Shown here piece after piece: positions 10,724 to 36,625 of a stretch of 41,228 nt of DNA. Position 1 is the stretch's first letter. Each line of letters opens with the position of its first letter. This stretch comes from an uncultured Schlesneria sp. GTDB lineage: Bacteria; Planctomycetota; Planctomycetia; Planctomycetales; Planctomycetaceae. The stretch covers positions 1 to 41,228 of the forward strand of contig CAIULL010000213.1 of the NCBI GenBank assembly GCA_903899985.1. The letters run 5' to 3'. The notes below the pieces were generated by a model. The model searched no databases. It was not told where the DNA came from and was given only the letters and a program-made list of their open reading frames with translations. The translations under genes and the position numbers were made by a program.

Positions 10724-13700
10724 TTACGGAGCCAGGACTAAGACATTGTCGATAATAATCCCGCCGATTCCCGTTCCCTTGGGCATTGAGAATCCATCAG
10801 ACAGCGACGCAGTGTTACGAATCCAGTTCGTTGGCGATCCGGAGGGTGCATACAGCGAAATTGTTGGAGCAACCTGGCTGAATATGATCCCTCGATGGGT
10901 TAAAGTATCGCCAGCCAGCAAATTTATGGTATTTGCGTTGATCGTGAAATAGGAACTCGAGGCAGCGTAATCGAACAGCATTCCGGTCGCCCCCCCAGCA
11001 AAGTCCGTCATGTTGTTTCCAGTAATCGTCGCTGTCGTCGTTTCGTATAAGCCAAAGCGGAATCCGGTTCCACCCGTACCTTGGAACTTGAGTCCATTAC
11101 TTGTCACATTCACTGTCGAAGTACCGGTCGACGTCTGGCCTGATTGGCCATCACCGATGTAGACTGCCGTACCCGAAGTTGCCCCGGCATTTTGGAAGAA
11201 AATCGAATTGCCACTGACGGTTGCCAACAGGTTTGCTCCCGTTGTATTGGTGGTGTTAACCGTTGTTGGCAGTAACGACGAACCTTGAAGCGATATGGCG
11301 GTCATGTTGGCACTGTAAGCATAGAACGTATTTCCCGAAACGGTGGCTACAACAGGTCCATTCCAATTCACCCCTGCAAGCGTTCCCCCGTTACCGTAAC
11401 CTGAGATCAAGTTGCCAGAAATCTGCGTTGTCAGCGGTGATCCAGCAGCGCCAGCCTGGGTTGCAATTTGAATTGCGCTCCCGTTGGGATCGGTGACGGT
11501 GTTGGTTTCAACGTATGAGTCATACGTTCCAACAGTATTCGCCATCACCCTGATCGTACCACCGCCGACCGTACCATTAGCTGTCAGAATCGAATTACTT
11601 AACGAAAACGTACGATCGTTCAGAGAATCAATTGCATACCCTGCCGTACCTGTCATACGTAAATGCGACAGCGAGAGAGAGGTAGTGTTTGCCGACTGAA
11701 TGCCAACGGCATTATTTGTGTAGTCAACATAACTGAAATTCGTGTTCCCGTATCCGTTAATCAACACTCCGCCGACCGTCGTATTCTGGATTGTTCCACC
11801 TGTTGCATAATTTCCATTCCCCTGAATCACAAAATTGCCGGTACTCCCTTCAATCTGGATTCCATAGAGACCACCATTCGCGGAGACGGCACCAAGTTTC
11901 GCATTGAAACCTGATGAATGGACATCAATCGCCGGGGCATTCACCGTTGTGAGTGACCCGCCGTTAATCTGCAGTGAGCTCGCATTATTCGTGTAGAGTC
12001 CCGTCCCATCCTGAGTATTCAGATTCAGATTTCCAATCGTGATTGGATTCGTTGTATCTGCCAACGAAACAGCAGCCCGCGTGGACGTTGAAGTGACATT
12101 GAGGTTTGCAATATTGATGTTTGCGTCCGTGCCGCTTGCCACAAATCCGGCACCGTTGGGTGATGTGATTTTCGTGTTACCAGTAAAGTTATAGGTATTG
12201 AAAGTGCTCGTTGATACGCCATTTACGGTTTTGGTAATACCCGTCGTTCCAGAAATTGCAACTGCAGAACCTCCTGAATTACCTGACCCTGATTGAGTGA
12301 CATTAAGAGAGTCGATCGTCGCATTGCTTGCAACGCTGTTCATCAGCAGTCCCGTCCCACCAACGTTGATCAGCGAGAGATTTCCGATCGCAATTGAGCC
12401 CCCCGTCAGGTTCTCAAGTACAAAACCATTTCCTGCTGCAGTAATAGAATTCCCAGTACCATTGTATGTGAGATTGGGGTTACCCCCATTAAAGATGATC
12501 CCGTTTCCCGACGCAGATGTGACCTGAATGTTGTTCATGTTGACGTTACCAGACGAATTCGTCAGGTTGATTGCATCACCGCCAATGGACGAAAAGACCA
12601 GATCGTGCAATGAGACTCCCGAGACTCCGTTGCCGAGGATTCCGTTCCCACTGGCTCCCATGATATTGAATCCACCGACCTCAGAATTCGATGCCAAGGT
12701 CACGGCAGTGCCATTAACACTTTGAATTGTTGGAGTCGAACCGGCACCAGATTGCTGGGCTGCCGCCTGTAATAAATTTGGGATCTGTACGTTTCCGCCA
12801 CCGACGGTCGGCAATGTCTCCGTAAAACTTCCCTGACCAAACAAATGCTGGCCTGAGCTTAATATAATTGCCTGGTTCAACACTGATCCACTTTGGACGA
12901 GGAAGACATTACCACCAGCGGCCTGCGCTGCCGAAACAGACGGAAACGGGTTAGCGCTTGTCCCATCCGGTGTACCCGATCCACCACCTGAACCACTCGG
13001 ATTGGCAAAGATCTGGTCGATCACATACGCCTTTCCGGTTGTCGGATCGGCAGCAACCTGGTTAGTTTCGTTAGTTTGTGATTGAGCAACGATCACGTTG
13101 TAGTTGCGTTCAACAAATCGAAATGGAGACGGAGTATTTCTTGTCCAACTCGCAGTCGGATGATTGTTGGCGAAAGGAAACTGGAGCGACAATCCGACCA
13201 TGAAATTGTCGCCATACAGTTTATCATGTGTGTAAAGCACTTGTGCTGTAATGGTATTATTAATGACCCCTTCGACACGCGCTTTGAACCCGTTGACACC
13301 ACTCGTCGAACCTCCGTCAAAGTGATATCCGCCGACAAAACCACGTACGACATGGCGATCACGAACTGGCAAGCTATAGCCGATTTCCACATCGACTCCG
13401 CGCAAGGCCGAACCAGTGTCGATGGAGCGGGAGTAGAGTAGCTGGTTGCCAACGATCGTCGAGTTACTGACCGAAGACGACACCGTTTGAGACGATGAAA
13501 AGGGCAGGTAAACGTTGGAACGGACTTCAAATCGCTGGATGAGGCCTTCGAAGCTGAGTCCCACTTGTTGAAACATTTTTCCTGTCGACTGGTCAGCGTC
13601 ATACCAGACACTGGCACCTCCCCAGGCATTCCAGTCGTCAATCAAGCGGCGGTATCCGAAGCCAAAATTTCCGCCTGCCCTGGATTGATTTGTCACAAAT

Positions 13701-14092
13701 CCACGGACATCCGCAAAAACGAAATGCTCATCGGTTAATAGATACGGCATCACTTCGATCGGCGTGATCGAGACATTGCGTCCAAATGTCCTGGCGGCAA
13801 GATGGCTGGCTCGACCATAGACGCCGATACTATTTCCCATCGGCTGCGGCGACGTTTCTTTGGCTTCTGAAAAATCAATCGGTTGAGCCTCTCGCTCAGG
13901 CGTTTCAGGTTCTTCGGGGTCAGGCGATTCTACATCTGCAACCGGTTCTTTTGGCATGATACGTACCGGTGGCGATAAGTCTGCTTGAAGGATTAGTGAT
14001 CCCATGCCGATCAGCGGAAATATGAGCGCAACAATCCACGTACGCTTCAGGTATTGCCTTGAACGTGATGCGGCAGGACTTCTCGTCGACAT
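10724..14092 (-). CDS. inverse-autotransporter barrel with beta-helix passenger, surface protein
   Basis: 1122 residues from the ATG at 14092, preceded by AGAAGGA at a 9-base spacing. A longer in-frame start at 14182 lacks a ribosome site. A hydrophobic segment (WIVALIFPLIGMGSLIL) near residues 19-35 is the signal, followed by an acidic Pro/Glu linker. About residues 85-305 resemble the intimin/invasin-type barrel (IAT_beta): FADVRGFVTNQSRAGGNFGF, GYRRLIDDWNAWGGASVWYD and YGDNFMVGLSLQFPF. After a Gly/Ser-rich link (about 370-390), over 700 residues of Asn/Gly/Thr-rich short repeats form a right-handed parallel beta-helix. The barrel-first order implies type Ve-like export with the C-terminal helix outside. 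Classical inverse autotransporters carry Ig-like passengers, so the helix is notable. The ligand or substrate is unknown. Confidence 0.82.
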   Translation of the reverse strand: MSTRSPAASRSRQYLKRTWIVALIFPLIGMGSLILQADLSPPVRIMPKEPVADVESPDPEEPETPEREAQPIDFSEAKETSPQPMGNSIGVYGRASHLAARTFGRNVSITPIEVMPYLLTDEHFVFADVRGFVTNQSRAGGNFGFGYRRLIDDWNAWGGASVWYDADQSTGKMFQQVGLSFEGLIQRFEVRSNVYLPFSSSQTVSSSVSNSTIVGNQLLYSRSIDTGSALRGVDVEIGYSLPVRDRHVVRGFVGGYHFDGGSTSGVNGFKARVEGVINNTITAQVLYTHDKLYGDNFMVGLSLQFPFANNHPTASWTRNTPSPFRFVERNYNVIVAQSQTNETNQVAADPTTGKAYVIDQIFANPSGSGGGSGTPDGTSANPFPSVSAAQAAGGNVFLVQSGSVLNQAIILSSGQHLFGQGSFTETLPTVGGGNVQIPNLLQAAAQQSGAGSTPTIQSVNGTAVTLASNSEVGGFNIMGASGNGILGNGVSGVSLHDLVFSSIGGDAINLTNSSGNVNMNNIQVTSASGNGIIFNGGNPNLTYNGTGNSITAAGNGFVLENLTGGSIAIGNLSLINVGGTGLLMNSVASNATIDSLNVTQSGSGNSGGSAVAISGTTGITKTVNGVSTSTFNTYNFTGNTKITSPNGAGFVASGTDANINIANLNVTSTSTRAAVSLADTTNPITIGNLNLNTQDGTGLYTNNASSLQINGGSLTTVNAPAIDVHSSGFNAKLGAVSANGGLYGIQIEGSTGNFVIQGNGNYATGGTIQNTTVGGVLINGYGNTNFSYVDYTNNAVGIQSANTTSLSLSHLRMTGTAGYAIDSLNDRTFSLSNSILTANGTVGGGTIRVMANTVGTYDSYVETNTVTDPNGSAIQIATQAGAAGSPLTTQISGNLISGYGNGGTLAGVNWNGPVVATVSGNTFYAYSANMTAISLQGSSLLPTTVNTTNTTGANLLATVSGNSIFFQNAGATSGTAVYIGDGQSGQTSTGTSTVNVTSNGLKFQGTGGTGFRFGLYETTTATITGNNMTDFAGGATGMLFDYAASSSYFTINANTINLLAGDTLTHRGIIFSQVAPTISLYAPSGSPTNWIRNTASLSDGFSMPKGTGIGGIIIDNVLVLAP

Positions 14093-14203
14093 AGTGACAG
14101 TTCCTTCTCGCGCAATCGAATTGTTAGACCAATCGACTGGCCGGAATTCTTTCAAGCGATGGTTACCACCATCACCGTTCAATGACGGTCTAGGCCCGCA
14201 ACG

Positions 14204-27329: not shown

Positions 27330-27500
27330 CGCTCACGAAATCTGATGTCAAAGTTCGCGCGAGTTCGCGCGACTTCGACCATTCCCCATGTTTCATAGCG
27401 TTTCCGAAGACATTTTCCGCTTTTCCATCGCAAAAAAGTTCGCCAGACTTCGCGCGAGTTCGCGCGAGTTCGCCAGAGTTTGATCGACTTTGACGAAGTT
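27330..27500 (-). repeat. CGAACT-module, copy 2
   Basis: Read on the minus strand, repeated CGCGCGAACT units flank a core with GCGGAAAATGTCTTCGG and GGGGAATGGTCGAAGTC, ending ACATCAGATTTCGTGAGCG. It is homologous to 1078-1225. Here the CGAACT units are CGCGAACT instead of ATCGAACT, so the short unit has been homogenised within each locus. Confidence 0.6.
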
Positions 27501-27549
27501 TGACTCCGTTTTGCAACGGGACTCCTGACTTCGAACTGCAGACTCGATA

Positions 27550-28640
27550 GACAGTCGAATTTTGAAAACGTTGCGCAACGATGTTGAGCAACATTGGCCA
27601 AGTTTGAGCAACGATGGTACCTGCTTGCTAAACGATCGACGGTAACCGCCGAAACATACTGTGACCAAAACTCGTGTGGTAGGGTGTGGTCGAATCTTCG
27701 AGGACCACCAGCCCCAGGTTCCGGTTTCGGGAGGTCGAGAAAAAACTCGACCAAATTTCCTTTTTGAAAATGTTGCGCAAAAATAAAAGTCTTTGACCAA
27801 CATTGGCGGAACACAGGCGTTTTTCGATATTTCATAGTTCGAAAAGGTTGCGCAACATTGTTGGGAAACATTGGCCAAATTTGAGCAACGATGGTTACGC
27901 GACCCGCGCGGCGTTTGTGCAACCATCGAGCCTGCTTGATTCACGTTGGACGACACGCTCCGAAACAAACAGTGATTGAACCTCATATCGTAGGATTTGG
28001 TCGCGTCTTCGAGGTCCACTCGTCCTCCATTTTTCATTTCAGGAGGTCGAGTGGAGATTTGCCCCAAATTCCTTTTTGAAAACTTTGAGCAACTTTGGAA
28101 GTTTTTGGGCAACATTGCCAGAATACAGCCTTTTTTCGGCATTTCATCGTTCAAACCGTTTGAGCAACGATGTTGGGTAACATTGGCCAAGCTTGAGCAA
28201 CGATGGTTGCGCAACCCTCGCGGCGTTTGGGTAATGATCGGGCCTGCTTGGTTCACGATGAACGATGCCCGCCAAAAAAAGCAGTGACTGAACTTCGCGT
28301 CGTAGGGTGTGGTCGAGTCTTCCAGGCCCACCAATCCCCCGGTTTTGCTTTCAGGAGGTCGAGGGGATATTCGCCCCAATTTCCTATTCGTAAACTTTGA
28401 ACAACATTGGAAGTTTTTGAGCAACATTGGCAGAATACAGCCTTTTTTCGGCATTTCATCATTCAAACAGTTTGAGCAACGTCGTTGAGCAACATTGGCC
28501 GAACTTGACCAACTATGGTTGCGCAGCACGACGGCTTCTGCACAATGATGGAATCTGTTTGGATCACGATGGATGATGCCCGCCAAGATAAACGGTGACC
28601 GAACCTCCAGTCGTTGGGTACGGTCGAGTCAAAAGTTCGA
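27550..28640 (-). repeat. tandem array of about 312-bp units (about 3.5 copies)
   Basis: The landmark CATTGGCC occurs at 27592, 27869, 28181 and 28493, giving spacings of 277, 312 and 312. Each unit (minus strand) holds a cluster of TTGC(G/T)CAA motifs and an AAATGCCGAAAAAAGGCTGT-like stretch. A CTCGACCTCCTGAAA block, a GACTCGACCACACCCTACGA-like block and a CGCCGCG...GCGCAACCATCGTTG block follow. Copies are about 80-90% alike by eye. Because 312 is a multiple of three, a long minus-strand frame (28586-27393) stays open through the array, but its product is a Cys/Asn-rich repeat with no recognisable fold. I regard the array as non-coding. Confidence 0.7.
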
Positions 28641-29129
28641 TACGAAGAGATCACGACAATAATTCGGACAACCAAGATGCAGTCTGCGCCCACACGGCGC
28701 AAAACGAACCGCACGTGAAGAGACATTGTCTTCAAGCTTGCGTGTCGTATTTATCCGTGACCATCAGTGCGATCCGTGGTTAATCTCTTTCCTTTTTATT
28801 CCGACGAATTGATCGTCAAACGACGCCCTTTTCAGGATGGCAATCACATTGCCCGCCCAAGTAGATTCGTTTTTGTGTTTTACTAGTCGTTATTTTACAA
28901 CCCTTTTGCGGATTGCGTCAATTCATATTTACACATTATTTGACGTTTTGTTGAAGTTTTTAGAGGAGACAACGAGGGGTACAATCCTTCGGGAGTGTTC
29001 TGCTGCAGGGTGACGGGTATACTCAAACCACTCTTCGGACAGCCGTCTCCGACAATTGCTCAGGCGACTGTTCCGTTCGTTTTCCAATTGCTCAACATCA
29101 TCCAAACCTTCAACCAGGCGACACAGCTT
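28641..29129. other. about 490 bases without a gene; edge of repeat locus and esterase leader
   Basis: 28761-28780 matches, reverse-complemented, the arm and inner flank of the inverted-repeat element at 1380-1481. 28860-28960 is A/T-rich and probably carries the promoter of the esterase gene; TTGACG near 28938 is a weak -35 candidate. The in-frame extension of the esterase back to 28995 lacks signal-like or conserved sequence. Confidence 0.4.
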
Positions 29130-30197
29130 ATGCCATCACAGATCAAGGACATTCTGGTCAAACATTGCTTCCTCTTCTCAGCCGCTCTGCTCGGACTTCT
29201 CTCCGTTTCCTCCGCGACCGCTCAGGAAAAACCGGAACATCCCGGCACCGAAGGAAATGGTGACGTCGTCATCGGACCCGAATACAAAACGGACATCGAT
29301 CTGACCGACCGAGCGAACCTCAAAGGGAAATCGTTCGAATTCTCCATGAAGCTGGCGGACAGCAAGATTTTCAAAGGGGACGATTCGACACTCGAACCGA
29401 AGAAAAAAGTCCGCGAACAACGCAAGATTTTTGTCTACATCCCCGCCGCCTACAAAGACGGAACCAAAGCCCCGATCCTGGTCACCCTGGATGGACCGAG
29501 CCAATTAAATCTGGTCCGAAATGCACTCGACAACCTCACCGTCTCAAAAGACCCCCAGCGAAAATTGCCAGCGTTCATCGTGATCTCAGTCGAAAACGGA
29601 GGCGACGACAGTAAAGGGAGCGAACGAGGTCTCGAATACGACACCCTTTCCGACCGATTCGCTCGCTTCATCAACGACGAAGTCTTGCCAGCTGTGCTGA
29701 ACGATCCCAAGATCAAAGCCGCCTATCCCAACATTGCGTTCACACAAAATCCCTGGGGCAAAGCGGTCATGGGTTGCAGTTCGGGCGGGGCCGCAGCACT
29801 CACCATGGGCTGGTTTCGTCCCGACCTTTTTCGTCGCCTGATCACCTATTCCGGCACTTTCGTCGATCAACAGGACGATGACGCTCCCGAAGAAGCCAAA
29901 TACCCGCTCGGTGCCTGGGAATACCATTCCAGCATGAAGTTGATCGAAACCAGCGAAAAGAAGCCGCTAAGGATTTTCACTCACGTCTCCGAAAACGATA
30001 ACGGAGCGAAAAGTCCCGAATCGTCCTACCACAACTGGGTCATGGCCAACGAACGAACCGCCGCCGCCCTGAAGGCCAAAGGCTACGACTACCGCTACGT
30101 CTTCAGCAAAGCCTCAAGACATTGCGACGGAAACGTCTTCCAGCACACGCTGGCCGATACGCTCGTCTGGATGTGGCGCGGCTACGAGCCGGAATAA
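29130..30197 (+). CDS. exported esterase D / Fes-like alpha/beta hydrolase
   Basis: 355 residues from the ATG at 29130, chosen because a Sec signal (HCFLFSAALLGLLSVSSATAQ) begins within ten residues; an ATG at 28995 would precede it by 45 residues. The putative-esterase fold shows RKIFVYIPAAYKDGTKAPIL, a possible oxyanion strand, AFIVISVENGG, the nucleophile elbow VMGCSSGGAAA (G-x-S-x-G), and a catalytic His in SKASRHCDGNVFQHTL. Relatives include enterochelin esterase Fes, acetylxylan and feruloyl esterases. In planctomycetes such enzymes are usually periplasmic or secreted carbohydrate esterases. The substrate is unknown. It is alone, convergent with the large nuclease/TPR gene. Confidence 0.87.
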   Translation: MPSQIKDILVKHCFLFSAALLGLLSVSSATAQEKPEHPGTEGNGDVVIGPEYKTDIDLTDRANLKGKSFEFSMKLADSKIFKGDDSTLEPKKKVREQRKIFVYIPAAYKDGTKAPILVTLDGPSQLNLVRNALDNLTVSKDPQRKLPAFIVISVENGGDDSKGSERGLEYDTLSDRFARFINDEVLPAVLNDPKIKAAYPNIAFTQNPWGKAVMGCSSGGAAALTMGWFRPDLFRRLITYSGTFVDQQDDDAPEEAKYPLGAWEYHSSMKLIETSEKKPLRIFTHVSENDNGAKSPESSYHNWVMANERTAAALKAKGYDYRYVFSKASRHCDGNVFQHTLADTLVWMWRGYEPE

Positions 30198-30317: not shown

Positions 30318-33300
30318 TTATCGAAACCGCAGCCAATAGTTCAGTTCATACTTTAAAAATGACGCAGACGGAAAATCGATTCGGAAGAACCCATCGATTT
30401 TAGACAACATCCACGTGACAGCGTCAATATTCTCGATCGCATCTAGAATTGCCTGAACTACCGACGTCTGCATGAATTCGTTGCAGCTTGATCTTCGGAG
30501 CAATTGCATGATCGCAATTCCAAATTGTTTTTTCTCATCAAGCGACAACACACTCGAACGAATCAATCTTATGAACTGATGAAGTGGCCAATCGTTAACA
30601 TCCCATTTAGCTATCTCAGCTGCAACAATAAAATCTTGCGGCTCCCAGAATGTAATATTGTAGTTCCAAGCCGCCAATTTCGCAGTTACCGCGATGACGG
30701 CTTTCGAAACATCTCCACCCGACTTTTCCAGCCGCTTGAATGCGAGTTGCGTCCAAATGCGTTGAACGCCGAAGTCGACCTCAGCAACAATTGCAACAAA
30801 AATATCGTCCGTCCACAGAATAGCATTCTCTTCCTTTGCGACACTCAAAGCATGAAGCGATTCGTTTCCGAGAACATCGCGATAACCGTCGCGTCGTTTG
30901 GGATCTAAGGCAGCGACCGCCAATGATGTCTTTATTTTGCAACGTGCTCTCAACTCCGAAATGATCCCCTGAACTTCATTTATCTCTTGCCTAAGTTGTT
31001 GCGACGTTATTTCAAACGTTAACATCTGTCCGTTTTCGCCAACTCCGAATCGTTGGACCGGTTGCCCTTCGCTTTCCAATAATTTACGCAACCAGTCTTC
31101 AATTGTGTCTAGCGCATGCCTCGAAACGAAGTACTCAGCTGTTTTATCGAGATGCTCCCAAATCTCAAGCATCGAAATAGTCACGATCGCTGAAATGTCT
31201 AGCACGAACTTCTTTGAAGGCATTTTCGCCGTACTTGCATTGTTGAATTCAACCGGCGAACAGTCGGCGCACCTTACGAACCAATGGTCATTTTGGACAA
31301 GTGACTGCATCAATTGGCGTAAATCGCAGCCAATCATCGAGGCAAAGAAATGCAACGAACAAAAGTTATTGTGGTAGTAGTCCGAGACAGATTCTAATTC
31401 CTTCCGACCTTGCTCTAATTGATTTATCAACGGCGTTGGGTCGAATTCGTCGCCGGATCCAACAAGTATCCATTGAACTGTGGACCCCCCAGGGAAACGG
31501 TATTGGAAATTCCTAATTGCGTCTTGAAAAAGACGCAAGAACTTGGATTGTATCGCTACGATGCGTTCTTCTTGTACCCGGAGAGTTTGGCCGGTAACGT
31601 TTATGAATTCGCCGATGCGCTTCCCAATAATCGCTTGAACAAGATCCGACGAAGAAGCCAATTCATACCTGCCGATGTCGGGATTGGCATCCTCTACGGT
31701 TATCCACCGTTGTTCTTTTGTGGTCGTATTCTCAATAAGTATCGCAGATTGAGTGCCAGCAGCTTCAGTAGCTTCGAACACCGTTTTCTTGCCGTATTTT
31801 AGAAAAAACCAGATATACTGGCCGTGCGCCCGTTCCGCTGAGAAGTTATTTCTGAGTTGATGATACGCAAACGTCATCGCTTCCTGAAAACGGCGAGCTT
31901 CTACAAGTGGTGTGACAACCAAATACCCATCATCCGGCGAAAATGCTTCAGGGGGCAGTCCCTCGAAATCAATGACTTCTTTTCTACCCAGGTGTGTTGC
32001 AATGAAATTCGTGGCCGCGGTAAAATAAATTTTGTCGTACCGTTTAAATTCGATCGCGAGCGACAATGCCTTCTCCGGGTCATAATGAGAAAGCATTTGC
32101 ACTTCCATTTTACGCAGCTTTTCGTCCTGCTGCCCAGTTTGGCGAAGTTCCTCACAAGTCCGAAGCAAAGTATCATGTCGCCCGAGGCGTTGAGCACATG
32201 AAACGAGCTTCATGCAAGCGTCGTCAAAAACACCTGGCGTGGCAGCCTGTTCTAATAGTGGCAATGCACGCTCCTCGTCATGCAATTTCACTAGGAGCGT
32301 GGCCAAAACGACAATCTCCTGCTGGTTTGCCAATCGTGAACTTGAATCGAGCGCTTTTTCAACGTACTCACGTGCTAATTCAACGTTTTCGGCTTCTAGT
32401 TCGATCCAGCCAAACAAGGTGTTTCCTTGAAAAGGGCAACGTTTTAAGAAAGCGGTCGACACGCAATCGCGTGCCAAATCCAAATCCCGAAGGTCGATCG
32501 CCCATTGCACGCTGTGGAATATTGCTTCCGTTGCCCGTTCGAACGCCGATTCCCCCAACCCTGCCATTTTTACGATGAGATTTCGCTTTTCATCGTTTGT
32601 TGCGAAGTGATAATTTGTAGCGACTGTCAAGAATTTGCCGTCATCGGAATTCGGCGACAGCGACGGCAAAAGTGCCCGCGCAGAATCGAAGTCTTCGATG
32701 TGTAGAAAAAACGTAATTGCAGGGTCGGCATAAAGGCCAAGATTGTCTGAACCACTGACTGCACGGCGATAATCAGCCTTCGCGGCGTCATAGTTGCGAA
32801 GTGCTCCGAAGACGCGTCCGCGATTGGTACAAATCTCGGGAATCAGCCCAGGATACTTATCCCGCTCTGCGGCCGCAAAGGCATCGGTATAGTAGCCAAT
32901 GGCGCTGTAAAGGTTTTCAGCACGGTTCTTCCAATCGCCGTTCAACCCAAGATAATGTGAGACCATTCCGCACGTAAATAACGCATGCGCTGACTTCGGA
33001 GCGTGTTCTCGCAATTTGGCGGTTACAGCAATTGCTCGATCAGGGAGTTGCCACCCTAAATATTTATCAACAAGCGTTCGCATCAACTCCTCATCGTTCG
33101 ACAAGTATTCATCAACCAGATTTTGGAAGGGAACAAGTTCTTCCGGTTCAGTCGTACCACGAACAAGGAGGGTAACTAGAAACGGAGAACGAATTCCGCT
33201 GTTAAGCAAATTAGCCGCTTCATCAACTACCTGACGTTGGTTTCCAGTTAGGCTCAACGCCAGAATGCGATTTTGCTGGGCTTGTTGTAGTTCCGGCGAA

Positions 33301-34043
33301 GCCTCGTAGGCCAGCATGAATAATCGGGCTGCCTTGTCGAATTGTGATCGTTCCATAGCGAGCTTCGCGCGGAACCTCAGGATCGCATATCGGTCGGCCG
33401 GTGTTAAAGAATCGTCGACCTCGGGGTCCGGGAATTTGCTAATTTCATATTCGACAACCTCGATTTTTCGCGACATGAACAACGCGTCTATTTCGGAATA
33501 CACGGAACGTTCGGGCGATCCAAGCGTGGGAGCGGAAGAGTATGATGGGCTTCCTGCAGGCATCAGACAAAGACCGCCTACCTCGCCCTGGGACAACTCT
33601 GGGTAAAAAATGAAATCCGCAAGTGCCTGGCCAAACTCACTCAAATGCGTGCAAATCTCCTCCCAGAAATGAATCTCGACGGTGAAACGGCGAATATTCG
33701 CTGGCCGTTGATTCAACTTTATGACTGTGTCTTGGGCATACCGACTCTTCTTCGCCGTCGTCGCGATGATGTAATGATCAACTTTATGGACCGAAGTCTC
33801 CGCCAACAAAACCTCGTGTTTGATCGATTTTGGTGTAATCGTTTTTGTGATTTCGTGATATTTACATTGAATCGCAACGTGAGGCTTGCGTGGGACTTGG
33901 TCAATTATGTCTATGCCGTCTTGTTTCTCACCCCGCTTGCCATATCGGACCAGTGTCGCTCGCTTGAGAAAATGACGGTAGAAACGGACGCAGAAATCCT
34001 CGAACTCGTCTTCATTTCCCGGCTGTTGATATCGGTAACGCAT
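30318..34043 (-). CDS. Mrr-like nuclease / TPR / GreAB-C-like / PIN-like fusion protein, probable conflict system
   Basis: 1241 residues, ATG with AAGGGA about 9 bases upstream. Residues 10-63 look like a PD-(D/E)xK Mrr-type nuclease: NEDEFEDFC, then GEKQ-D42-G-I-D45-I, then Q59-C-K61. About 190-690 is helical TPR-like solenoid (DRYAILRFRAKLAMERSQFD, FTCGMVSHYLGL, NYDAAKADYRRAVSGS). About 765-830 resembles the GreA/GreB C-terminal domain (DIGRYELASSSDLV, then QAIIGKRIGEFINV). About 940-1100 resembles a PIN ribonuclease: KFVLDISAIVTIS and, late, AILWTDDIFVAIVAE. The order TPR, GreAB-C, PIN matches, to my recollection, a domain family named PIN-TPR-GreABC; I could not verify this. Two predicted nucleases around a sensor scaffold suggest an abortive defence role. 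The gene is less GC-rich than its neighbours by eye. Confidence 0.7.
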   Translation of the reverse strand: MRYRYQQPGNEDEFEDFCVRFYRHFLKRATLVRYGKRGEKQDGIDIIDQVPRKPHVAIQCKYHEITKTITPKSIKHEVLLAETSVHKVDHYIIATTAKKSRYAQDTVIKLNQRPANIRRFTVEIHFWEEICTHLSEFGQALADFIFYPELSQGEVGGLCLMPAGSPSYSSAPTLGSPERSVYSEIDALFMSRKIEVVEYEISKFPDPEVDDSLTPADRYAILRFRAKLAMERSQFDKAARLFMLAYEASPELQQAQQNRILALSLTGNQRQVVDEAANLLNSGIRSPFLVTLLVRGTTEPEELVPFQNLVDEYLSNDEELMRTLVDKYLGWQLPDRAIAVTAKLREHAPKSAHALFTCGMVSHYLGLNGDWKNRAENLYSAIGYYTDAFAAAERDKYPGLIPEICTNRGRVFGALRNYDAAKADYRRAVSGSDNLGLYADPAITFFLHIEDFDSARALLPSLSPNSDDGKFLTVATNYHFATNDEKRNLIVKMAGLGESAFERATEAIFHSVQWAIDLRDLDLARDCVSTAFLKRCPFQGNTLFGWIELEAENVELAREYVEKALDSSSRLANQQEIVVLATLLVKLHDEERALPLLEQAATPGVFDDACMKLVSCAQRLGRHDTLLRTCEELRQTGQQDEKLRKMEVQMLSHYDPEKALSLAIEFKRYDKIYFTAATNFIATHLGRKEVIDFEGLPPEAFSPDDGYLVVTPLVEARRFQEAMTFAYHQLRNNFSAERAHGQYIWFFLKYGKKTVFEATEAAGTQSAILIENTTTKEQRWITVEDANPDIGRYELASSSDLVQAIIGKRIGEFINVTGQTLRVQEERIVAIQSKFLRLFQDAIRNFQYRFPGGSTVQWILVGSGDEFDPTPLINQLEQGRKELESVSDYYHNNFCSLHFFASMIGCDLRQLMQSLVQNDHWFVRCADCSPVEFNNASTAKMPSKKFVLDISAIVTISMLEIWEHLDKTAEYFVSRHALDTIEDWLRKLLESEGQPVQRFGVGENGQMLTFEITSQQLRQEINEVQGIISELRARCKIKTSLAVAALDPKRRDGYRDVLGNESLHALSVAKEENAILWTDDIFVAIVAEVDFGVQRIWTQLAFKRLEKSGGDVSKAVIAVTAKLAAWNYNITFWEPQDFIVAAEIAKWDVNDWPLHQFIRLIRSSVLSLDEKKQFGIAIMQLLRRSSCNEFMQTSVVQAILDAIENIDAVTWMLSKIDGFFRIDFPSASFLKYELNYWLRFR

Positions 34044-34083: not shown

Positions 34084-34108
34084 CCCGATTTCGGCGACCG
34101 AAATCGGG
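34084..34108. promoter_or_regulatory. 25-bp perfect palindrome upstream of the nuclease/TPR/PIN gene
   Basis: CCCGATTTCGG (34084-34094), CGA, CCGAAATCGGG (34098-34108): perfect 11-base arms. The near edge is 41 bases upstream of the start codon at 34043. With no T run on the minus strand it is more like an operator or 5'UTR hairpin than a terminator. It lies in the divergent region shared with the membrane protein gene. Confidence 0.5.
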
Positions 34109-34520
34109 ATGCGCAGATTGGTTGAAGCTAACGGGCAAATACGCCCGCAACAAGCATTGTCCTCCCGACGCGGAAATTGGTTCGCTCGCGCTTCCATTTT
34201 TGAAGTGGTCAAGCGAAGAGCTCATGCTGAGAAATTTTGATGAATATTGACCGTGATGAATTCTGCCTTTCCTTCCCATTAGTGGTTCTTAATTTTGGAA
34301 AGCGGTGTGTCCAATCGGTGCAATTTCTGAAATCGACAGTCGCATCGAGTCCGCGCTGGTCAAGTTAAACGATTCCGTTTCAAATTGGTTCAAACCTAGA
34401 AACGCCGTCTTCGGTCCGTTAAAAAGGCAGCTCTACGCACCCGTGGCTGTGGCACTGTCGACAACTCGATCGAAAACGATTTTGATAGCGGGGGCAAGAT
34501 CCAGCAACCGGCTAGTCCTC

Positions 34521-35462
34521 ATGGTGATTTCAAGAAAGCCCAAAATGACCGAGTCGCCCCCTGACAAAACCCCCGAGCTCCAGGAAAAGATCAAGTCGCT
34601 GAATACTCAAATTGATCAAATCAATAAGGCGCACACGAGTGAAATCAATTCGCTGAATTCCCGGCTCCTTGCCTCCAATTACGCCGAGGCCGTGGCTGCG
34701 AGCAAACTCCAAGAAGCGAACGACAAGTTGACGGACGACGGAAAATCAACGTTGTACGACAAGGAAAGAGACCGGTGCCTCAAGTTGGCTCAGTCTTATG
34801 AGGAATCATGGCAGCGCCTTCGAGAACACGAGTGGCGGCTTGAAATCGCGTTTTGGGGATTACTTCTCGCCTGCATCGGGCTGTTTGCCGGTGGCGTTAG
34901 CCATTTATTCGGGTCAGAAATATCGGCCCCAAGGCTCCCAGAAGAACTGCTCAACAATCTTCCGCGCAGCTTGATATGTTTTTGGGTACTTAGCGTCATG
35001 GGTAAGATTGGCTACCAATTGGCATTTGAATATTACGCAAAAAATCGCGACTACTACATTCGACAAAGTTGTGCAGCAGTGTGCCCAACGCTTTATCAAT
35101 GGAGCGAGCCAAAAATGAATTGGTGTGATCCTCGCACGTGGAAGTGGCATGTGTACAACCGAATTGCGGTCATCCTCTACAACGCGGCGGTAACCGGGAT
35201 GCTGTTATTCACCTGCAACCTACTGATAAACAAAGCTGCGGCGAAGGAATCAAAGCCGATCTTTGAAACGATTAATGGAACGGTTGAAACGATTTCAATG
35301 ATTCCCGATCACGACGGCGTGCTTTTGCTGCGAGGTGGAACAAAGATTGTTTTACCGCCAGGTCTTGGTCAGGGTGTGCCGAATGATAGCAAGATCGAGG
35401 TCATCGCGTACAAATTGAAGGAAAAGGGAGACCTTCGCGCCGTGAAGCTGTATGCCAAGTAA
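34521..35462 (+). CDS. coiled-coil membrane protein of unknown function
   Basis: 313 residues from the ATG at 34521; ATG 34545 (preceded by AAGAAAG) and a GTG at 34305 (adds 72 residues) are alternatives, so the start is uncertain. Residues about 15-105 are charged helix with heptad character (TPELQEKIKSLNTQIDQINK onward). Three hydrophobic segments follow: AFWGLLLACIGLFAGGVSHL, LICFWVLSVMGKIGYQLAF and IAVILYNAAVTGMLLFTCNL. The last 70 residues form a beta-rich cytoplasmic or periplasmic tail (GVLLLRGGTKIVLPPGLGQG) with an OB-like look. Divergent from the nuclease/TPR/PIN gene across 477 bases, it may be part of the same accessory unit, but no family is recognised. Confidence 0.65.
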   Translation: MVISRKPKMTESPPDKTPELQEKIKSLNTQIDQINKAHTSEINSLNSRLLASNYAEAVAASKLQEANDKLTDDGKSTLYDKERDRCLKLAQSYEESWQRLREHEWRLEIAFWGLLLACIGLFAGGVSHLFGSEISAPRLPEELLNNLPRSLICFWVLSVMGKIGYQLAFEYYAKNRDYYIRQSCAAVCPTLYQWSEPKMNWCDPRTWKWHVYNRIAVILYNAAVTGMLLFTCNLLINKAAAKESKPIFETINGTVETISMIPDHDGVLLLRGGTKIVLPPGLGQGVPNDSKIEVIAYKLKEKGDLRAVKLYAK

Positions 35463-35746: not shown

Positions 35747-36625
35747 ATGCTGATCGGTATTCGCCCCATCAATGACTTTGCGTTCAAAAAGACGTTTGGA
35801 TCACCTGAAAACAAGCTGGCTTTGATTAGCCTGCTCAATGCCATTCTCGGACTGCCGAAGCCGATAATCGATGTCACCATCGAAAACCCATACAATCTTC
35901 AGGACTTCAAAGACGACAAACTTTCGATCCTCGACATCAAAGCGATCGACCAGGCAGGCGCGATCTATGACGTCGAAATGCAGTTGTCGTTTTTTAGCGG
36001 GTTAATCCAGCGGATCGTCTTTTACGGATGCGAAATTTATTCCGATCAATTGAGATCAGGCGACGACTATTCGTTGCTCAAGCCAGCGTTTTCCATTTGT
36101 CTGCTCGACGGAGTCCTCTGGAACGACTCGAAGAAAGTCCACCACGCTTTCCGTTTCACCGACCTGGAATCGGGACGGACGTTGAACGACACATTAGAAA
36201 TTCACACGATCGAGTTGGGACGGTATGATCTTCAAGAGAAAGATCTGGCCACGGCGAGTATGTTAGATTGTTGGCTCTATTGGCTGCTCCGTGCTCATGA
36301 ATACGAGCCTGACGAATTGTTGAAACTATTCCCGCAGGAAGCAATTCGTCAGGCGACGCATACCATTACTCAGATCGCACAAGTTACCGAGGATAAAGCC
36401 ATGTACGATTCAAGAGAAAAAGCGATCCGCGACCAGCAATGGGCGCTTAATGCTTCACGAAAAGAGGGTGTGATTGAAGGGGAGATCAAAGGGAAAAACG
36501 AAGGACGGATTGAAGGGGAGATCAAAATGATTCGAATGATTCAAGAGATTTTAAATCTCCCTGTCAGCACCGATGCGGATTTCGACGGGAAAAAAATTGG
36601 AGGAACTTCAGTCACTAACGGCTGA
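35747..36625 (+). CDS. Rpn-family PD-(D/E)xK nuclease, C-terminus frameshifted
   Basis: 292 residues, ATG with AAGGA 9 bases upstream. Rpn (recombination-promoting nuclease, PDDEXK_2) proteins nick or cut DNA and are often called putative transposases. The start NDFAFKKTFGSPENKLALIS is diagnostic. The active site is D63 (LSILDIKA) with E77-x-Q79 (YDVEMQ). The charged repeat EGVIEGEIKGKNEGRIEGE near the end is the usual Rpn linker. The normal ending of an LEELxxLTxxL helix is missing in this frame, but it is present one frame over after the A7 tract at 36590-36596 and runs to a TGA at 36660-36662. So there is a +1-type shift: sequencing error, mutation, or slippage. Confidence 0.88.
   Translation: MLIGIRPINDFAFKKTFGSPENKLALISLLNAILGLPKPIIDVTIENPYNLQDFKDDKLSILDIKAIDQAGAIYDVEMQLSFFSGLIQRIVFYGCEIYSDQLRSGDDYSLLKPAFSICLLDGVLWNDSKKVHHAFRFTDLESGRTLNDTLEIHTIELGRYDLQEKDLATASMLDCWLYWLLRAHEYEPDELLKLFPQEAIRQATHTITQIAQVTEDKAMYDSREKAIRDQQWALNASRKEGVIEGEIKGKNEGRIEGEIKMIRMIQEILNLPVSTDADFDGKKIGGTSVTNG

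Follow-up and report, generated by a model that had tools for sequence, protein, structure and literature searches.

The closest described relatives of the gene treated here belong to a predicted conflict system, TPR-GreA/B-C-PIN, for which the relevant section of a 2021 paper (PMC8195603; eLife 2021;10:e70394) gives 13 exchangeable N-terminal effectors, including restriction endonuclease (REase), HNH, PNPase, TIR, SIR2, peptidase and EAD10 domains. The same section proposes docking on RNA polymerase, with the PIN domain cutting the transcript and the N-terminal domain serving as effector, and relates the GreA/B-C fold to FKBP-like peptidyl prolyl isomerases. Our subject is a 1241-codon gene at positions 30318-34043 (minus strand) of contig CAIULL010000213.1, from an uncultured Schlesneria sp. 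(the window below means this whole stretch of 41,228 nucleotides), whose product is, by its domains, a member of that system, with an architecture already published. The authors of the 2021 description are reportedly Kaur, Iyer, Burroughs and Aravind. With a probability of about 0.55, we read the query protein as an antiviral conflict protein in which an exchangeable REase head would be the effector and the TPR-GreAB-C-PIN core the sensor. The signs of this that can be read from the sequences are the architecture, an intact head motif, the apparent exchange of heads, a fast-evolving core, the loss of PIN acids and the presence of defence genes near some relatives.

Several features of the family are found in this gene: a PIN domain of the kind that Pfam lists as PF20698 ('PIN domain associated with the TPR-GreAB-C-PIN system') lies on the C-terminal side, the TPRs precede the GreAB-C module, a variable effector occupies the N-terminus and the gene stands alone. 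The GreA/B-C domain itself is recognised through a family profile, the single sequence falling below the Pfam cut-off. An earlier, sequence-only reading of this DNA had likened the domain order to that of predicted immune systems, which we can now name as the TPR-GreA/B-C-PIN system of PMC8195603; its single chain of 1241 residues is likewise borne out by one uninterrupted frame with an ATG start, to which the strand is now added. The features of the gene, with positions in the window, are as follows.

30318-34043, minus strand: whole gene, 1241 amino acids, a single open frame, stand-alone
33594-34043, minus strand: Mrr/REase-type PD-(D/E)xK head, residues 1-150, Mrr_cat_2 over its cut-off
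33909-33911, 33867-33869 and 33861-33863, minus strand: predicted catalytic residues D45, Q59 and K61 of the head, by motif and alignment
31974-33506, minus strand: TPR solenoid, residues ~180-690, by Pfam TPR_2/TPR_8, AlphaFold2 and Foldseek
31539-31790, minus strand: GreA/GreB C-terminal-like module, residues 752-835, by family profile and hhalign
31224-31511, minus strand: helical, perhaps helix-turn-helix-like (HTH-like) segment, residues 845-940, a weak assignment
30783-31205, minus strand: PIN domain PF20698, residues 947-1087, over the Pfam cut-off
31197-31199 (D949, acid kept), 31104-31106 (T980, non-acidic), 30852-30854 (H1064, non-acidic) and 30804-30806 (D1080, acid kept), minus strand: PIN sites, by alignment
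30321-30728, minus strand: C-terminal tail, residues 1106-1241, by alignments, unnamed and also present in relatives

The gene shares with the described system the order of the core, its stand-alone nature and a possible REase effector, but its PIN domain lacks two of four acids and its neighbours lack a defence match. Two full-length relatives (labels in L and G denote loci and genomes of the compared relatives) have the same head and core, namely Rhodopirellula sallentina SM41 (L004:7998-11672) and G698 (L076:5535-9314), with 58% and 63% head identity to the query, respectively, and 22-45% in the core domains. Two further loci, in G291 (L021, 6609-9962) and G374 (L022, 5723-9031), also combine TPRs with a PF20698-like PIN domain but, unlike the query, have no GreAB-C match and reach PF20698 weakly (29.3 and 32.2 bits against a cut-off of 27.8), L022 having in addition HTH_upst_double_PIN; they are not counted as members and perhaps represent a sister system with a common PIN core. 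Avs/STAND-type proteins have a repeat-rich sensor fitted with an Mrr, SIR2 or PNP head. Their exchangeable heads are similar, but a STAND NTPase domain was absent from the Pfam scan of the query protein.

An exchangeable head with an intact nuclease motif

The match to Mrr_cat_2 covers residues 38-111 (E-value 1.5e-6, 28.5 bits, Pfam cut-off 22), and the D...(Q/E)xK motif is complete as D42-G-I-D45 and Q59-C-K61, exactly as the sequence-only reading had claimed. Across 23 aligned REase-type heads D45 and Q59 never vary and K61 is kept in at least 90%; as these residues persist despite a mean column identity of 35%, the head seems to be under selection as an enzyme.

The comparison set behind this and the following counts holds 42 members including the query, six of them without the N-terminus in the compared piece. 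Left out of it are L002, whose 1006-codon frame ends inside the PIN domain near query residue 985, L021, L022, L064 and a series of near-identical plasmid records (two of the Qipengyuania group, Methylobacterium oryzae and four further B. cepacia), whereas L028 and L029 have only a similar head in common with the query and are not members. Profiles comprised 38/42 sequences for PIN (without L003, L046, L080 and L081), 39/40 for GreAB-C (without L081), 23/24 for the heads (without L081) and 39/41 for a fourth profile, A9 (without L003 and L081); L080 and L081 are weak members with long branches on the tree.

Among the 36 members with an N-terminus, the head is of the D...QxK type in 24, SMEK in two and SIR2, PNP or GT4-conflict in one each, the other seven having no Pfam name. 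With this motif so widely shared and REase on the published list of effectors, the Mrr-like head is not the distinctive addition that had first been supposed. The REase label was given by a text test (QCK, QCR, QVK or QSK within the first 170 residues), which alone labels L042, L065, L069, L070, L073-L076 and L079, the Pfam scans having covered the other heads. In those scans the Mrr models score below cut-off on the heads of L004, L020, L031, L036, L037 and L040 and find nothing in those of L025, L026, L030, L032, L033, L035 and L043; since most of the relatives' heads are by themselves too divergent for the Pfam Mrr models, their label is founded on alignment plus motif.

A tree of the core (residues 700-1225, 41 rows, with four truncated rows uncounted for the head label) requires five changes of the REase label, at least four of them forced by well-supported branches and the total being fewer than with shuffled labels. 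These five changes indicate that heads have been exchanged on the core. Moreover, in all but one of 17 hand-picked pairs head identity is above that of each core domain, the exception being Ancylobacter with R. johnstonii, although the pairs share sequences and so are not 17 independent tests; in the Rhodopirellula sallentina pair the head is 58% identical as against 22-34% for the core domains. By these identities, the core is the fast-evolving part and the head usually the best conserved one.

Some other heads deserve mention in their own right. By eye, the N-termini of L078 (5529-9464) and L080 (4650-8492) look like several transmembrane helices, a type absent from the effector examples in section 7 of PMC8195603, and those of L044 and L045 were labelled, also by eye from the letters, as 'QMKS nuclease-like'. 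In Planctomycetes bacterium TBK1r (L003, 4560-10829) the gene is split by a frame, with a 285-codon head piece, an 802-codon frame on the opposite strand and then the remaining core, and L038 and L046 are members cut short beside IS21 and IS66 transposase genes.

A PIN domain that has lost acidic residues

As for the PIN domain itself, PF20698 matches residues 947-1087 with an E-value of 3.2e-17 and 63.5 bits, against a cut-off of 27.8. A canonical PIN active site has four, and at least three, acids. Of the positions set by the alignments of relatives (949, 980, 1064 and 1080), two are acidic in the query, D949 and D1080. In a comparison of the PIN profile with the solved PIN protein 3ix7, positions 949, 980 and 1080 fall opposite residues of that structure, in a very weak match (E-value 0.08 for the whole sequence); this is also the best value among the matches to the Protein Data Bank (PDB), all of them weak, which include 3ix7 and RNA-free RNase P.

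Within the family, aspartate or glutamate occupies site 949 in 40/41 members, 980 in 22/42, 1064 in 37/42 and 1080 in 42/42. One of acids 1, 3 and 4 is missing in 6/41 members, and the state of these acids changes five times on the core tree and likewise on a tree made without the PIN columns. The nearest relative, G698 (L076), reads D,T,E,D where the query reads D,T,H,D, its H1064 being encoded by CAT, and L004 reads E,E,D,D; with glutamate in G698, the non-acid at 1064 is particular to the query lineage among the members seen. Two Burkholderia plasmid copies that also lack two acids give, as one pair, a ratio of non-synonymous to synonymous substitution rates (dN/dS) of 0.15 over 161 PIN codons and 0.145 for the head, and this purifying selection on a PIN domain without two acids argues that the fold is kept for binding, at least in that pair.

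The query PIN probably serves as a binding or sensing fold and not as an RNase. Some weak activity is possible, histidine being able to coordinate metal. The PIN-type RNase of the sequence-only reading thus stands as a PIN domain and falters as a working RNase, with T980 and H1064 non-acidic; and its picture of a protein with two nucleases is doubtful in this copy, because two of the four acids have gone and such losses recur in the family. More tentatively, and at clearly less than even odds, the proteins of the family would be infection sensors docked on the polymerase, their PIN domain being in essence an RNA-recognition fold that can do without catalysis and has repeatedly lost it, leaving the head as the sole weapon in copies like this one. 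If true, this would reverse the published order, in which the PIN domain acts first with the head as reserve.

That published model, stated in section 7 of PMC8195603, has the GreA/B-C domain dock, the PIN domain first cut the transcript that is forced into the secondary channel and the effector kill the cell if the PIN domain fails. It draws support from the 35/41 members in which sites 949, 1064 and 1080 are all acidic (all four sites in 21/41) and from the loss of defence in PIN catalytic mutants of DS-3 (one gene) and DS-5 (two genes), described in PMC13092281, where the need for catalytic residues speaks for active PINs in defence generally. Set against these points, the query lacks acids 2 and 3, the 6/41 members without one of acids 1, 3 and 4 represent five changes on the tree, and the Burkholderia pair behaves as expected of a binding fold, so we regard this model as rather unlikely to describe the present protein.

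The GreA/B-C module and the TPR solenoid

A profile of 39 members for the segment at residues 752-835, searched against 177,635 PDB sequences, finds GreB (2p4v, E-value 1.1e-6), GreA (1grj, 1.8e-5) and Gfh1 (2etn, 1e-4), with matches covering most of the Gre C-terminal domain and Rnk coming next at 0.036, and hhalign pairs it at 95.6% with a GreA encoded by a genome belonging to the class of the query. On these two grounds the GreAB-C module is more than a chance resemblance at the level of the family. The module seen in the sequence-only reading is thus upheld by the family profile, the query on its own remaining under the Pfam cut-off.

The N-terminal coiled coil of the Gre factors is missing, in that GreA_GreB_N has no match in the Pfam scan of the query protein, and the segment would therefore at best serve for docking and not act as a cleavage factor. 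GreB, GreA and Gfh1 bind RNA polymerase. From its fold, the module may contact RNA polymerase. A TPR defence sensor whose GreAB-C-like fold binds another target (a phage protein, a peptide or a nucleic acid) would agree with a divergent module without the coiled coil and with the kinship to FKBP-like peptidyl prolyl isomerases noted in PMC8195603, but the closest solved relatives of the module are polymerase binders, and we hold this explanation to be improbable.

The long TPR scaffold proposed from sequence has fared well, with Pfam TPR_2 and TPR_8 slightly over cut-off at residues ~402-430, an all-helical AlphaFold2 solenoid at ~180-690 (predicted local distance difference test, pLDDT, mostly 75-96) and Foldseek matches of this model to proteins built of helical repeats, among them Ctr9 and the TPR domain of OGT. 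The segment between the module and the PIN domain (845-940) may be HTH-like, PF24407 (HTH_upst_double_PIN) matching 5/39 members at an E-value ≤ 0.1, the query not among them, and hhalign giving 65%. The C-terminal half, predicted with four sequences, reached a mean pLDDT of 44.5, and Foldseek with this weak model places PIN proteins first (1v8p, probability 0.99) at an E-value of 0.04, with no match at ≤ 0.001. Structure prediction, proposed in the sequence-only reading as a check of the folds, thus produced the solenoid and poor models of the head and the C-terminal half, and given the low pLDDT there it does not settle either of the latter.

Distribution and genomic context

The distribution of the family is sporadic. 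PF20698 exceeds its cut-off in 3/392 genomes of the phylum set, 8/170 of the family set and 15/397 of the class set (overlapping sets, the query genome being counted each time), in none of 14 congeners listed, and a search of genome contigs gave three loci with relatives. Searches of plasmids yielded 20 distinct members (15 from Alphaproteobacteria, four from Betaproteobacteria and one from a cyanobacterium), and tblastn in phage records found no member. The query gene is the sole match at an E-value ≤ 0.001 in its own 8.0-Mb genome.

Defence matches were obtained with PADLOC in 6/19 annotated plasmid member loci (L026, L034, L035, L037, L041 and L042), where 12 proteins chosen by annotation were submitted and all 12 matched, the other 13 loci lying outside the scan. 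They comprise Gabija GajA and GajB in L026, L034 and L037, GajA (the sole one submitted) in L035, Shedu (SduA) in L026, a CBASS cyclase and phospholipase in L041 and a Pycsar cyclase and E1-E2 in L042. By annotation only, SIR2 genes occur in L034, L043 and L045, AbiE in L041, an abortive-infection gene in L044 and a Shedu-domain gene in L035. As a control, six 50-kb stretches totalling 300 kb, taken at hand-picked arbitrary positions on six of these member plasmids and judged by annotation in incomplete gene tables, held no annotated Gabija pair, Shedu, CBASS or Pycsar; they do contain one SIR2-family, one AbiEii-family and one large DNA methyltransferase gene, together with VapC and RES toxin-antitoxin genes. 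Defence genes thus adjoin part of the plasmid relatives and none of the four types appears in the controls, which favours a defence role in a comparison that is small and annotation-based.

The sequence-only reading had named homologs confined to housekeeping contexts as the result that would tell against it, and what the search found is a sporadic distribution and plasmid copies among defence genes. That the gene is a decayed or housekeeping TPR protein with no defence role is very improbable, for although two PIN acids are lost, the window neighbours lack a defence match and some relatives are cut short beside insertion-sequence genes (L038, L046) or split (L003), the 1241-codon frame is intact, the REase motif is kept, plasmid relatives adjoin defence genes and absence from the 14 congeners argues against housekeeping.

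Upstream DNA and other features of the window

The flanking frames run divergently upstream (34305-35462, plus strand) and convergently downstream (28995-30197, plus strand), so the query gene is stand-alone. Its GC content is 47.8%, compared with 51.1% across the window. An Rpn-family nuclease/putative transposase (35747-36625, plus strand; TIGR01784, E-value 5.7e-37) lies 1.7 kb upstream of the query gene; certain Rpn proteins reportedly act against phage. The whole query protein has no match in the PDB by phmmer and no model in PADLOC, whose sole match is DUF4297 (E-value 0.009, residues 42-67). A scan for promoters and terminators at the gene gave no signal above shuffles, and Rfam and tRNA scans of the window returned nothing. 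Before the start codon there is one further feature.

34084-34108, no strand assigned: perfect inverted repeat with an 11-bp stem and a loop of 3 bases, located 41-65 bases ahead of the start codon

This palindrome, CCCGATTTCGG-TCG-CCGAAATCGGG, has one site in the genome at up to two mismatches, and an 11-bp stem arose in none of 1000 mononucleotide shuffles of the 220-base region upstream of the gene. No palindrome of 9 bp or more was found upstream of 41 relatives, so it is not shared. From its form it is a candidate operator or hairpin.

Elsewhere in the window, 27583-28630 carries roughly four direct repeats (311-312 bases each, 68-77% alike), which span a 397-codon minus-strand frame (27393-28586) that reads as a cysteine-bearing unit of ~104 residues. 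The 1152-codon frame at 10724-14182 (minus strand) reads like a large surface protein of beta-barrel or autotransporter type that includes a repeat region.

Proposed mechanism and its meaning

If the query is an antiviral conflict protein of this kind, its GreAB-C module, devoid of the Gre coiled coil, would dock at the rim of the secondary channel of RNA polymerase, where the core would detect the infected state of the polymerase, such as the binding of a phage protein or an aberrant transcript end. Detection would free the REase head, which would then cut DNA, of the phage or of the cell, with the infection stopped or the cell killed as the outcome, and the PIN domain of this copy would take a binding or sensing part in the process, not that of an RNase.

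Several observations weigh against such a reading. We found no experiments on any TPR-GreA/B-C-PIN member in the open-licence PMC literature. AlphaFold2 models the head poorly (run on residues 1-699, block means of 30-82, with residues 1-60 below 50), the profile of 23 REase-type heads meets no restriction enzyme in the PDB and, among the relatives' heads scanned, L081 alone passes a Pfam Mrr cut-off by itself. (The lone PDB match of the head profile, a ribosomal protein at an E-value of 0.31, was discarded as chance.) The retention of acids 1, 3 and 4 in 35/41 members argues that PIN cleavage is important to the majority of the family. As for the module, Pfam GreA_GreB gives the query alone 12.2 bits at residues 765-831 (cut-off 26.9, E-value 0.18), and the query copy has serine-aspartate where the GreB loop (IDSPMARALL) has serine-proline. 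Finally, none of the eight window neighbours submitted has a PADLOC match at an E-value ≤ 0.001, and the limits of the plasmid comparison given above count here as well.

Should the core indeed monitor RNA polymerase, such immune proteins would sense infection at the transcription machinery itself. Natural copies without the PIN acids, the query included, would offer a direct way to separate sensor from effector, and the repeated loss of these acids is the part of the story worth following.

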